64,000 bases of DNA from Desulfarculaceae bacterium (GTDB lineage: Bacteria; Desulfobacterota; Desulfarculia; Desulfarculales; Desulfarculaceae). Below are positions 14,287 to 24,281 of the stretch, in pieces. A program made the position numbers and the translations under genes. The stretch's first letter is position 1. The number at the start of each line of letters is the position of its first letter. The stretch spans positions 744,001 to 808,000 of the forward strand of contig JAHLKT010000001.1 of NCBI GenBank assembly GCA_020444545.1, in the 5' to 3' direction. Under the pieces are notes generated by a model, which worked only from the letters and a program-made list of their open reading frames with translations, was not told the origin of the DNA and did no database searches.

Positions 14287-15906
14287 ATGGCGGGCGACAT
14301 GGCCAATCCGGTTTTCATAGCGGGCGCGGCCCTTACCAAATTCGGCAAGCGCCCCGACTCCCTGGAGCAGATGATGATCCAGGCGGCCTCGGCCGCCCTG
14401 GCCCAGGCGGGCCTGGACACGGTGGACGCGGTGTATCTTGGCGTGATGGACCCGGCCGAGTTCACCGGCGACTCCAACCTGGCCGCCATCCTCACCGACC
14501 AGCTGGACCTGCCCGGGGTGCCCTCCTCCCGGGTGGAGACCGCCAGCAGCACCGGCGCGGCGGTGCTGGAGACCGCCTTCTACGCCGTGGCCAGCGGCCT
14601 GGTCAGCCACGTGCTGGTGGTGGCCGGCGAGAAGATGACCCATCTGCCCACCGCGGCCACCACCCAGATTTTGGCCCGGGTCATCGACCGGGTGGAGCGT
14701 TCCTACGGGGCCACCATGCCCGCCCTGGCGGCCATGATCGCGCGGCGCTACGCCTTCAAGCACGGCCTGGACGATGGCGAGCTGGCCGAGGCCCTGGGCG
14801 CGGTGGCTCTGAAGAACCACGCCAACGGCGCGCTCAACCCTCTGGCCCAGTTCCAAAAGGCCATTACCCAAGAGGACTACGCGGCCAGCCGCCTGGTGGC
14901 CGATCCGTTGCGTCTGTTCGACTGCGCGCCCATCAGCGACGGCGCGGCGGCCATGGTCTTGAGCAGCCGCCCCGCCCTGCTCAACCTGGTGGGGGTGGGC
15001 CATGCCACCGACACCCTGGCCGTGGGCCGTAGGGGCAGCCTCACCTCCTTCAACTCCACCAAGCAGGCCGCCTTGAAGGCCTACCGTATGGCCGGCCTGG
15101 GGCCGGAGAGCATCGACCTGGCCGAGGTGCACGACGCCTTCACCATTTTCGAGATCATCGGCTGCGAGGACCTGGGCTTTTTCGAGCCCGGCCAGGGCTG
15201 GCGCGCGGTCATGGAGGGCGACACCGGCCGCGAGGGCCGCTTGCCGGTGAACGCCTCGGGCGGGCTCAAGGCGCGGGGCCATCCGGTGGGCGCCTCGGGC
15301 CTGGCCCAGGTGGTGGAGCTGGCCTGGCAGATGAGCGGGCAGGTGGAGCCGGCGCGCCAGCTGCCCCGGGTGGAGGTGGGCCTGGCCCAGTCCATCGGCG
15401 GCCTGGCCAACAACAACCTGGTCACCATCCTGGCCCGCACCGACGCTAAGCGCGCCTGGCAGGTGCCCGAGAAGATCGCCTATAGCCCCGAGCTGTTCCC
15501 CAGCCGCCCGCTCCTGCACCAGGAAAGCCTCCAGCCGGGCCGGGGCAGTCTGCTCACCTGGACCACCCTACACACCCCGCCAAAGGGATTCGACGCGCCC
15601 CTGGAGCTGGGCTATGTGCAGCTGGGCGACGGCTCGGTGATATTGGCCCACGGCCGCCTGGAGGAGCACCAGCCCAAGGAAGGGGCCACGGTCACGGTGG
15701 ACGTGGAGGGCGAGCACTTCGTGTACAAGCCCCGCGACACGGCGGCCAAGTACCTCTGGCAGCTGGGCGGCAACCTGGCCCGCTCGGTGGTGGGCTGGTG
15801 GTCGGCCATGGAAGACGCCTCCACCAGCGCGGTGCGCGCCGGAAAGGCCGCCCGCCTCAAGGCCGCCCGCAAGAAGCGCCAGAGCGAACCGCCCGAGGAA
15901 GACTAG
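14287..15906 (+). CDS. Thiolase-like protein fused to a C-terminal DUF35 OB-fold domain
   Basis: A 539-residue fusion. Residues 1 to about 395 are an SCP2-type thiolase fold: EVHDAF and the C-terminal NASGGLKARGHPVGASG are intact. At the nucleophile position, where thiolases have C-x-S-G, this protein has S-S-T-G (Ser87 replacing Cys). Residues about 410-500 match the OB fold of DUF35 (WTTLHTPPKGFDAPLELGYV). DUF35 proteins normally partner thiolases as separate subunits; here the partner is fused and lacks the usual Cys zinc ribbon. The tail is basic, then acidic. ATG 14287 has a weak ribosome site; 14299 is an alternative. It may bind acyl-CoA or catalyse a non-classical reaction. Confidence 0.88.
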   Translation: MAGDMANPVFIAGAALTKFGKRPDSLEQMMIQAASAALAQAGLDTVDAVYLGVMDPAEFTGDSNLAAILTDQLDLPGVPSSRVETASSTGAAVLETAFYAVASGLVSHVLVVAGEKMTHLPTAATTQILARVIDRVERSYGATMPALAAMIARRYAFKHGLDDGELAEALGAVALKNHANGALNPLAQFQKAITQEDYAASRLVADPLRLFDCAPISDGAAAMVLSSRPALLNLVGVGHATDTLAVGRRGSLTSFNSTKQAALKAYRMAGLGPESIDLAEVHDAFTIFEIIGCEDLGFFEPGQGWRAVMEGDTGREGRLPVNASGGLKARGHPVGASGLAQVVELAWQMSGQVEPARQLPRVEVGLAQSIGGLANNNLVTILARTDAKRAWQVPEKIAYSPELFPSRPLLHQESLQPGRGSLLTWTTLHTPPKGFDAPLELGYVQLGDGSVILAHGRLEEHQPKEGATVTVDVEGEHFVYKPRDTAAKYLWQLGGNLARSVVGWWSAMEDASTSAVRAGKAARLKAARKKRQSEPPEED

Positions 15907-15939
15907 TCTATTTGCGCTAGGTTTTTCTCTGCTGCCCCC

Positions 15940-16119
15940 GACAGCTCGCTGTCTGGGTGCCGCAGGCACAAGAGGTCCGGCGCACCGTCCCGCCTGCTCC
16001 CAGCCGCCTCTTGCAAACAGAGATTGCCGCGTCGCGGCAAGGCCGCTCCTCGCAATGACAACTTTTTGTTTGCGAAATGGTTTTCTCTGCTGCCCCCGAC
16101 AGCTTGCTGTCGGGGCCGC
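15940..16119 (+). repeat. Direct repeat of about 180 bp, copy 1
   Basis: It runs from GACAGCTCGCTGTCTGGG to CTGTCGGGGCCGC and matches 16499-16680 almost base for base. A constant 559-nt offset holds for the first two thirds and shifts by one after a small indel near 16062. It encloses an inverted TCATTGCGAG-type unit. Confidence 0.85.
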
Positions 16120-16498
16120 TCGGCTCCCAGCCGGGCGGCAAGAAATCTTCAGCGCCTATTCTCGGCTTGTGATGAAAAAAAATGTAGGGGCGGGGTTTAT
16201 CCCCGCCCAAGAGCGCCCCGGACCGGCAACCACCGCCCCGCCTCGCCACCCACCTTTGTCATTGCGAGCGTAGCGAAGCAATCTCTGCCCCACCCCGGCC
16301 GCCTCTTATAAATAAAAAGGGCGGGGACCAGCCCCACCCTTGCAAACCCGGCTTCTTCTCTTAATCACAGAAACAGACGGTCATTGCGAGCAGCGGCGGC
16401 CCCAGAGGCAGATAAGGAAAGGCCGCCCCTCCCGCCGCTGCGTGGCAATCTTCCCTGGTGCCCGGCATCCCGCAGCATGTCTTTTCCGGGGTGGCCCA

Positions 16499-16680
16499 GA
16501 CAGCTCGCTGTCTGGGTGCCGCAGGCACAAGAGGTCCGGCGCACCGTCCCGCCTGCTCCAACCCGCCCTTTGCAAACAGAGATTGCCGCGTCGCGGCAAG
16601 GCCGCTCCTCGCAATGACAACCTATGTGTTTGCGAAATGATTTTCTCTGCTGCCGCCTGACAGCTTGCTGTCGGGGCCGC
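16499..16680 (+). repeat. Direct repeat of about 180 bp, copy 2
   Basis: The partner of 15940-16119. Differences cluster at two short patches (after CTGCTCC and after CAATGACAAC). High identity implies recent duplication or active copying. It ends 16 nt before the stop codon of the methyltransferase gene. Confidence 0.85.
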
Positions 16681-16696
16681 GAAGCGGCGAGCCCCC

Positions 16697-18906: not shown

Positions 18907-21378
18907 GTGACGGCAGCCAAGAAGAAGCCCTTTCCTCTCTCCCTGCTCCGGGACCTTTCGCGCACCATGAAAAAGGGCCTGGTCAAGAGCGCCGGGCGGG
19001 TGGACTTCGTGCGCCTGCTCAAGCACATCTCCGAAAGCGAGGCCGGCCGCCCCTGGCTGGACCGCTTCTCCCAGATGCCCGAGCACTGGGGCAAGGCCCC
19101 GGAGATCATAGAGCGGGCCGCCGAACTCACCCGGGCCCAACTCCTCGAGGAGGGCCGCGAGGTCGACGAGGAGGCCCTGGCGCGCAACCTGGAGTCCATC
19201 GGGGTGCGCTACGACCGCCAGCTGCACATCTACGGCGCTACGGCGGTGTGCACCCTGATGAACGGCTTCTTCTGGCAGCAGGATTCCACCAACTGCTTCA
19301 CCTCGCCGGACCACCGCGAGATCGCCCACGTGGAGCTGCTCAAGCAGTACCGCGACCAGGGCCTGGGCGTGGTCTACCTCATCAACCACTCCTCGCACCT
19401 GGACGAGTTCCTCCTGGCCACGGTGATGGCCCAGCACGACCTGGGCCTGCCCCTGTTCGCGGCGGGCGACAACATGATGGCCATCAAATCCATCGCCAAG
19501 ATCCTGTGGATCAGCTCCTACGTGGTGCGCCGCCGGGGGGCGGACCGGGCCTACATGGCCGCCCTGTACAACTACTGCCGGGCCGTGGCCGAGTGCGGCG
19601 AGCAGCAGGGCATCTTCCTGGAGGCCTGGGCCGGGGGCGCCCGCAGCCGCGACGGCTCTCTGCGCTACCCCCGCCGCCTGGTCACCCTGCGCGGGGCCCT
19701 GGCCGGGGACAAGGAAGTGGTCATCCAGCCGGTGGCCTGCTCCTTCGCGGCGGTGCCCGAAGACCTCTCCCTGGCCGCCCGCAAGGGGGCCATGGGCTGG
19801 GTGCGGGGCGTGGGCGTGCTGGGCACCCTGGCCCGCATGGTGGGCCATCCCCGCTCCTGGGTGTGGCGCAGCGTGCAAGACCTCTACGGCCGGGCCTACC
19901 TGACCCTGCCCCGGCCCCGCCTGCTTTCCGAGCTGAAGGAGGCCCACGCCGTCGACCGCCAGGGCCGGGAGCTGGACGAGTACGTGGCGCTGACCGCCAT
20001 CAACGACATCGCCCGCTCCAAGAAGGTGATGGCTAGCCAGCTCACCGCCCGGGGCCTCATGCGGGCCCGCCGCCAGAAGCGCGGCGACCTGGTGGAGGCC
20101 ACCCGGAGCGAGCTGGAGGGCCTGGCCGAGTACCACCGCGAGGCCTTCGGCCAGGAGCCGGACCTGGAGGACTTCATCCGCCAGAACCCGGTGGAAAAGG
20201 TGGTGGCCGACGGCCTGGGCACCCTCAAGCGGCGCGCGGTGGTCTGGCCCTTGATGCGCGACGAGAACAAGCTGCCCCTGGTGCGCAGCCCCAAGGGCCT
20301 GGGCTACTACGCCACCCACGGCGACCGGCGCATCTACTCGCCCACCGCCGACCAGAACGTGGTGGTGGCCGGGGCCGGGGACTGGGGCTTCGCCCTGGCC
20401 TGGCACCTGGGCTCGCACATGCTCGAAGCCAAGCGCTTTTTGAACGCCTCGCTGACCATCTACGACCCCCGCCGGGAGATCGTGGACCTACTGGCCTACG
20501 ACCGCAGCCCCGAGGGCCGCTTCAGCGAGCAGCGCCTGCCCAAAAACGCCTTCGTCACCAGCGACCGCCCCAGCGCCTTCAAGAAAGCCTCCGAGGTGGT
20601 GGTGGCCACCCCGGCCTCCCACCTGGCCGACCAGCTGGGGGCCATCCTGGCCCACGCCGAGCAGGGGCTCAAGCTGGTGGTGGCCAGCCGGGGCCTGGCT
20701 CCGGGGCCGGAGCTGCCGGTGCTCCTGGCCCGGCGCATGGCCGCCCAGGCCGGGCGCAATGACGTGAGCATCTACGCCCTGGGCGGGGCGGTGGGCCCCG
20801 GCGACCTGATCCCCGGCCGCACCTCCCGCCTGGTCCTGGCCGGCCCGGCCCCGGGCCGCGCCGAGCTGGCCGAGCTTCTGGCCGCGCCTCCGGTGGAGGT
20901 CTATCAGGCCCCGGACGCGGTGGGGGTAAACCTGGCCGGAGTCCTGGCCCGGGTATACGGCCTGTGGGGCGGCTTCCTGCTCAAGACCGGCCGCCTGGCC
21001 CGGGCCTCGGCGGCCGGCTGCTATCTGGCCGACGCCTCGGCCGAGGCCATCGCCCTGTGCCGCGCCCTGGGGGGTTCGGCCGAAAGCTTCAGCGCGGCCA
21101 GCCCGGCCTGGTCCTCGGCCTTCGCGGCCAGCGGCCTGGGGGGCTCGGCGCGGGACTTCGGCCGCAAGCTGGGCAGCCTGGCCAAGCGGGGCAAGGAGCT
21201 GCCCGCCGCGGCGGCCAAGCTGGAGGAGCAGCTCACCGAGGAGGGCAACAGCCTCACCGCCTGGCGCGACCTGGCCCTGGCTACCCGCCTGGCCCGGCAA
21301 AACGGGGTGGAGATGCCCATCCTGGAGGAGGCCCACGCCACCCTGGTGGCCGAGAAGGCGGCAGACAAGGACAAGTAG
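18907..21378 (+). CDS. Fusion of PlsB-type glycerol-3-phosphate acyltransferase and a GpsA-like domain
   Basis: An 823-residue protein from GTG 18907 (GAGG 6 nt upstream). Residues about 100-420 are a PlsB-type acyltransferase: catalytic H-x4-D (NHSSHLDEF, His161/Asp166), the glycerol-phosphate motif FLEAWAGGARSRDG, and a PVACSFA strand. Residues about 480-800 are a glycerol-3-phosphate dehydrogenase fold with NAD motif VVVAGAGDWGFALAW. The GpsA half has lost its key lysines: the TKG lysine is Arg in VVASRGLAPG, and the ALKN lysine is Ala in GVLARVYGLW. A normal GpsA makes the G3P that PlsB acylates, so this may be a channel, a sensor or a structural relic. It is membrane-associated by inference. 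Confidence 0.9.
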   Translation: MTAAKKKPFPLSLLRDLSRTMKKGLVKSAGRVDFVRLLKHISESEAGRPWLDRFSQMPEHWGKAPEIIERAAELTRAQLLEEGREVDEEALARNLESIGVRYDRQLHIYGATAVCTLMNGFFWQQDSTNCFTSPDHREIAHVELLKQYRDQGLGVVYLINHSSHLDEFLLATVMAQHDLGLPLFAAGDNMMAIKSIAKILWISSYVVRRRGADRAYMAALYNYCRAVAECGEQQGIFLEAWAGGARSRDGSLRYPRRLVTLRGALAGDKEVVIQPVACSFAAVPEDLSLAARKGAMGWVRGVGVLGTLARMVGHPRSWVWRSVQDLYGRAYLTLPRPRLLSELKEAHAVDRQGRELDEYVALTAINDIARSKKVMASQLTARGLMRARRQKRGDLVEATRSELEGLAEYHREAFGQEPDLEDFIRQNPVEKVVADGLGTLKRRAVVWPLMRDENKLPLVRSPKGLGYYATHGDRRIYSPTADQNVVVAGAGDWGFALAWHLGSHMLEAKRFLNASLTIYDPRREIVDLLAYDRSPEGRFSEQRLPKNAFVTSDRPSAFKKASEVVVATPASHLADQLGAILAHAEQGLKLVVASRGLAPGPELPVLLARRMAAQAGRNDVSIYALGGAVGPGDLIPGRTSRLVLAGPAPGRAELAELLAAPPVEVYQAPDAVGVNLAGVLARVYGLWGGFLLKTGRLARASAAGCYLADASAEAIALCRALGGSAESFSAASPAWSSAFAASGLGGSARDFGRKLGSLAKRGKELPAAAAKLEEQLTEEGNSLTAWRDLALATRLARQNGVEMPILEEAHATLVAEKAADKDK

Positions 21379-21455: not shown

Positions 21456-23765
<2,310 letters not shown>

Positions 23766-23801
23766 TTACGGACCCAAAAAAAAGGGCAATCCGCGTATTT
23801 T

Positions 23802-24239
23802 TTAGGATTTTTTTTGGCAGGCGGGGCAAAGCCCAAAGAAATCGAGCTGATGGCTGGTGATGTCGTAGCCGGAGCTCTTGGCCATCTCTTGGGCCAGGGG
23901 CTCCAGAGAGCCTATCTCCGGGTCGGCGATGGCCCCACAGCGGGTGCAGACGGCGTGGGCGTGGGGGATGGGCTTGCGGCCGTCGTAGCGGCTGCCCAGG
24001 TGGGCGAAACCCAGTTCCAAGACCTGGTCCAGGCCCTTGAGCATGGTCAGGGTCTTGTACACCGTGGCCAGGCTGGTGGTGGGGAAGTCCTGGGCCACCC
24101 GCTCGTAGATCGTCTCCACCCGGGGGTGGTCGGCGCTCTCGGCCAACACGCGCAATACAGCCAGGCGCTGGGGGGTCACCCGGTGGCCCGCCGCGCGCAG
24201 GGCGGCGGTCATATCCGCCACGCGCTGGCGGGGGTCCAT
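23802..24239 (-). CDS. perR: PerR/Fur-family metal- or peroxide-responsive repressor
   Basis: A 145-residue Fur-family protein (ATG 24239; a TTG at 24266 would add nine residues). The winged helix is RVTPQRLAVLRVLAES with recognition segment TTSLATVYKTLTML. The regulatory metal ligands match PerR positions: the His of DHPRVETIY, the Asp of RYDG and the two His of PHAH. Structural zinc cysteines are CTRC and CPAC. The adjacent katG and shared operators favour PerR over Fur or Zur. It probably autoregulates through the box at 24282 and controls katG through the box at 23750. Confidence 0.88.
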   Translation of the reverse strand: MDPRQRVADMTAALRAAGHRVTPQRLAVLRVLAESADHPRVETIYERVAQDFPTTSLATVYKTLTMLKGLDQVLELGFAHLGSRYDGRKPIPHAHAVCTRCGAIADPEIGSLEPLAQEMAKSSGYDITSHQLDFFGLCPACQKKS

Positions 24240-24281
24240 GGCTGGAGCTGGCGGGGTCCTTGTCAAAAAAATCTTCTCACC

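Follow-up and report, generated by a model that had tools for sequence, protein, structure and literature searches.

Why would a bacterium keep, at full length, a GpsA domain stripped of its active site and joined to the kind of enzyme that such a domain would normally supply with substrate? The question is raised by a gene in the window, by which we mean the whole stretch of 64,000 nucleotides analysed here from a genome of the Desulfarculaceae, a lineage of sulfate reducers. We consider it reasonably probable that the protein is a PlsB-type GPAT fused to a pseudo-GpsA, that opposite halves were lost in different lineages, and that the dead half acts as a scaffold or regulator.

The gene has a GTG start and an uninterrupted frame encoding a single protein of 823 aa, with the following parts (site numbers in GPD1 numbering).

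18907..21378, plus strand: complete fusion gene (823 aa and a stop codon); the flanking genes are both on the minus strand
19348..19740, plus strand: PF01553 acyltransferase core, aa 148-278 (Pfam)
19387..19404, plus strand: catalytic HX4D motif, H161-D166, present in every fusion of the dead-half clade
19924..20346, plus strand: linker, aa 340-480, mostly helical and terminating in a conserved THGDRRxYSP junction
20347..21360, plus strand: GpsA-fold half, aa 481-818, Z 36.8 against Coxiella GpsA 3k96
20371..20388, plus strand: GAGDWG dinucleotide-binding motif, aa 489-494
20536..20547, plus strand: LPKN motif, aa 544-547, invariant within the dead-half clade
20689..20691, plus strand: R595, at the site of catalytic K120
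20947..20952, plus strand: A681 and R682, at the sites of catalytic K204 and N205
21118..21132, plus strand: A738 and S742, at the sites of D260 and T264
21145..21150, plus strand: S747 and A748, at the sites of the phosphate-binding pair R269/N270

Pfam assigns the protein an Acyltransferase domain (148-278), NAD_Gly3P_dh_N (485-600) and NAD_Gly3P_dh_C (670-819), all above their curated cut-offs. Against the NCBIfam PlsB equivalog it scores 36.2 bits with a cut-off of 610, and because of this score we file its acyltransferase as PlsB-like and not as PlsB proper; the GpsA half likewise falls far under the GpsA cut-off. A chance or frameshift origin of the fusion was ruled out, because most relatives share this architecture as a conserved open frame. 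Matches to the query were found in 57 of 60 relatives, a few of these matches being to ordinary GpsA only, and named loci place the fusion in Desulfarculaceae, in Candidatus Adiutrix and its relatives, and in some Desulfobacteraceae. A literature search found no described PlsB-GpsA fusion, although most subscription papers lay outside its scope and novelty is not implied.

The window protein has the fold, the Pfam domains and the dinucleotide-binding GxGxxG of GpsA, the last as GAGDWG, but differs from GpsA/GPD1 at all seven active-site positions tested: GPD1 K120, K204, N205, D260, T264, R269 and N270 correspond to R595, A681, R682, A738, S742, S747 and A748. VVASRG places R595 at human GPD1 K120, and GVLARV places A681 and R682 at K204 and N205, in two independent alignments each. 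The first-pass annotation, which had reported an intact acyltransferase motif (H161 and D166, the HX4D pair), a preserved Rossmann NAD motif and the replacement of both catalytic lysines, was thus accurate down to the motifs it quoted, and the loss extends beyond it to the equivalents of N205, D260, T264, R269 and N270. The tested sites come from the highly conserved residues of human GPDH listed in a 2025 review (Q295, R269, N270, N205, T264, K204, D260 and K120; PMC12874384), with Q295 left out; the R269A substitution by itself lowers kcat/Km of the human enzyme 4.5 million-fold (PMC12874384). Misalignment was rejected as the cause of the lysine loss because pairwise phmmer alignments give the same result as multiple ones and no ambiguity arises in aligning the sister fusions described below. 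Judged by these residues, the GpsA half of the window protein is non-catalytic yet retained.

The loss is general in what we call the dead-half clade, sampled as 63 distinct fusions from Desulfarculaceae, Adiutricaceae and some Desulfobacteraceae, with four mislabelled PlsB rows and some mislabelled partial rows removed before sites were counted. The lysines are kept in 1/63 (K120 equivalent) and 0/62 (K204 equivalent), and the other sites fare little better: N205 in 1/62, D260 in 0/60, T264 in 4/60, R269 in 0/60 and N270 in 3/59. None of the seven sites is kept in 54 of the 59 complete rows; canonical GpsA keeps all seven in 31 of 31. The old catalytic positions vary, with R, C, N, S or A at the K120 site and A, S, T, V, E or G at the D260 site. 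Of the 63 fusions, 57 retain the nucleotide motif GxGxx[GA]; in the other six it is broken (GANDWG, SVGEWG, SEGAWG, GSEAWA, GSEPWA).

The acyltransferase half has the features of a PlsB/GPAT enzyme, namely HX4D, the residues of motifs II-IV (Arg; Glu and Arg; Pro) and a GPAT fold that matches human GPAT1 (8e4y) at Z 27.4 over 390 aligned residues. Quoting only patterns present in every row of a group, H161, D166, R209, E239, R246 and P275 occur in all dead-half rows; the window protein also has R248, which a few of the other rows replace by K. From PlsB work we regard R209, E239 and similar residues as essential, and the acyltransferase of the window clade is probably live. Besides its low equivalog score and its attached C-terminal GpsA fold, it differs from PlsB/GPAT1 by extra residues in motif III (FLEAWAGGARSRDG versus PlsB FIEGGRSRTG). 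Because of these residues, and because the motif III loop has low confidence in the AF2 model, its substrate could differ from G3P.

Homologous fusions in which the GpsA half is intact are found in Desulfomonilaceae (f61, including Desulfomonile tiedjei) and in a small class, f19. The family assignment of f61 follows from one genome, G366, with a contig of 26,923 bases; the 5 kb of it that were tested match the D. tiedjei DSM 6799 plasmid NC_018026.1 at 100% identity. These fusions share the architecture and the single fusion origin of the window protein, but the state of their halves is reversed. K120, K204, N205, D260, T264 and R269 are kept in 19/19 of them (N270 is S in f61), and the acyltransferase half is eroded: in f19 a Tyr replaces the HX4D His (H161 to Y) and the R209 and R248 equivalents are lost, and in Desulfomonilaceae HX4D is kept and the R209 and E239 equivalents are lost. 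PF01553 was not matched in D. tiedjei L197 or in L049. The retained HX4D raised the option that the Desulfomonilaceae fusions are fully bifunctional, which is doubtful given the loss of the R209/E239 equivalents and the lack of a PF01553 match in L197. In G072, G109 and G158 (each 99% complete; G158 being the one Desulfomonilaceae genome in this check) the fusion is the sole PF07479 gene, and it is likely, from gene content, the only GpsA of Desulfomonilaceae and f19. The first-pass annotation had held that fusions with both lysines would speak against a non-catalytic GpsA half; such fusions do exist, but they sit in this separate sister clade and therefore date the loss instead of refuting it.

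In a tree of GpsA halves rooted on canonical GpsA, the fused halves form a single clade (100/100), which argues for one origin of the fusion. Within it the dead halves are a single clade (100/100), with the live halves as sister (98/92). Branch lengths follow the state of each half, with a stem of 1.26 versus 0.3 for dead GpsA and stems of 1.07 to 2.7 versus about 0.4 for the eroded acyltransferases. The acyltransferase-half tree agrees, with a weak base (73 and 88) and a long-branch warning. Because the Desulfobacteraceae fusions nest within Desulfarculaceae in the GpsA-half tree, their placement suggests that the already dead form was transferred into that family. The simplest history we infer is one fusion with both activities followed by opposite losses, the two halves apparently never having come apart. 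The common ancestor would have been bifunctional, its GpsA half producing G3P and its PlsB-like half acylating it; in the window lineage a separate gpsA would then have taken over G3P synthesis while the fused half lost all seven tested residues, and the acyltransferase half, with every motif intact, most likely still produces lysophosphatidic acid. The sister lineage would represent the reverse decay, its GpsA intact and its acyltransferase motifs lost.

The window genome holds a separate intact gpsA, plus plsY and plsX, and a canonical gpsA, which the first-pass annotation had proposed looking for, is present in nearly every other genome with a dead-half fusion that was searched, apart from G053, where none was found, and G348 and G033, where the matches were partial. 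The fusion is not the only GPAT route in the window's own family, since PlsX and PlsY also occur there (PlsY across Desulfarculaceae except G012). A search for PlsY gave no match in any of the 12 Adiutricaceae genomes or in the Desulfobacteraceae-type genomes, and one for PlsX gave none in G012, G022 or G041. Apart from the fusion, the main PF01553 matches in G022 and G041 are one protein of PlsC size and one of Aas type. With PlsY not found in the 12 Adiutricaceae genomes, PlsX not found in the two tested and the remaining main PF01553 matches of these kinds, the fusion looks like the only clear GPAT candidate in Adiutricaceae. A PlsB-like protein of ~880 aa also occurs in Desulfobacteraceae-type genomes and in G072; the Desulfobacteraceae-type genomes with the dead-half fusion (L079-L093) also have a separate gpsA and, in those checked for it, a PlsB-like protein. 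Proteins of ~724-742 aa with a weak acyltransferase match were seen in G072, G109, G346, G349 and G351.

The gene neighbourhood yields no functional hint, because no neighbour is conserved across families. Only Adiutricaceae-type loci (L094-L131) have shared neighbours: a long repetitive protein is usually encoded upstream of the fusion (25 loci), and a hypoxanthine phosphoribosyltransferase-like gene often precedes the repetitive-protein gene. In the window, 21456-24266 on the minus strand is a catalase-peroxidase gene, immediately preceded by the gene of a Fur-family regulator in a usual oxidative-stress pairing, and 14287-15906 on the plus strand encodes a thiolase with an extra C-terminal ChsH2-type OB-fold domain in one frame. 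An intergenic repeat cluster (15904-16693) contains a 140-nt direct repeat in two copies (93%) along with several short palindromes of the form GACAGCT[CT]GCTGTC, and the open reading frames listed within it are probably not genes.

What, then, does the dead half do? An AF2 model of the fusion (mean pLDDT 87.4, pTM 0.79), in which the GpsA half gives the match to 3k96 and the acyltransferase half the match to GPAT1, indicates that the dead half still folds as GpsA. Its YN00 dN/dS is about 0.07-0.15, similar to that of the acyltransferase half, in the pairs where it was computable, and by this sequence measure purifying selection acts on both halves. Conservation in the dead half peaks at aa 461-560, the junction and the Rossmann N-lobe, with a dip at 521-540, and is lowest in the C-lobe (0.35-0.6). 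Because the dead half is under selection, strongest at aa 461-560, its most likely role is structural or regulatory, as a scaffold that would pack on the acyltransferase, possibly with a bound nucleotide.

A passive relic, which would be tolerated without having a regulatory role and would serve only to let the linker fold, is possible but not probable. The drifting C-terminal lobe and the free variation at the old catalytic positions are what such a relic would show, but full length has been kept across three families and one apparent transfer, with a dN/dS of about 0.1. The first-pass annotation suggested instead a sensor of NAD(H) or G3P. The old site is unlikely to serve for sensing G3P, having also lost R269/N270, the pair that binds phosphate. 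As for NAD(H), a Rossmann lobe that binds NAD+/NADH and tunes the acyltransferase to the redox state would be consistent with the preserved motif and with an N-lobe more strongly conserved than the rest of the dead half; the loop can, however, persist simply because the fold is conserved, and since six of the 63 dead-half fusions have a broken motif such sensing cannot be general. It is conceivable where GxGxxG is kept, and overall we regard it as rather unlikely.

We hold it improbable that the dead half is a docking domain that heterodimerizes with the separate active GpsA and so places G3P production by the acyltransferase. Canonical GpsA enzymes are dimers, and a separate gpsA coexists with the dead-half fusion in nearly all genomes searched, but within the dead half conservation is lowest in the C-terminal lobe, and the dead form seems to have moved into Desulfobacteraceae, where the separate GpsA belongs to another lineage. 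A new catalytic activity, acting for instance on some other phosphorylated ketone through a different active site, is highly improbable: the dead-half clade has the invariant LPKN motif with F549 and D553, but its old catalytic positions show no consistent replacement.

Returning to the scaffold or regulator that we favour, one extension would cover both lineages. Tentatively, an ancestral bifunctional enzyme may have decayed reciprocally, the dead partner in each lineage having been recruited to regulate the live half or to serve as its obligate scaffold, so that each half would control the other across the family. Pseudoenzyme halves within fusions are known, and among the structure matches Dunaliella salina DsGPDH (6iuy) likewise has a GPDH fold fused to another glycerol-metabolism enzyme; we take it to be a phosphatase-GPDH fusion, its partner being a phosphatase and not an acyltransferase.

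The inactivation of opposite halves in sister lineages provides a natural controlled comparison between live and dead versions of one fold at one position. The series makes it testable whether a retained dead metabolic domain is a regulator of phospholipid synthesis or a mere scaffold. The fusion is likely the sole GPAT of Adiutricaceae and likely the sole GpsA of Desulfomonilaceae and f19, and ordinary annotation could misread both.
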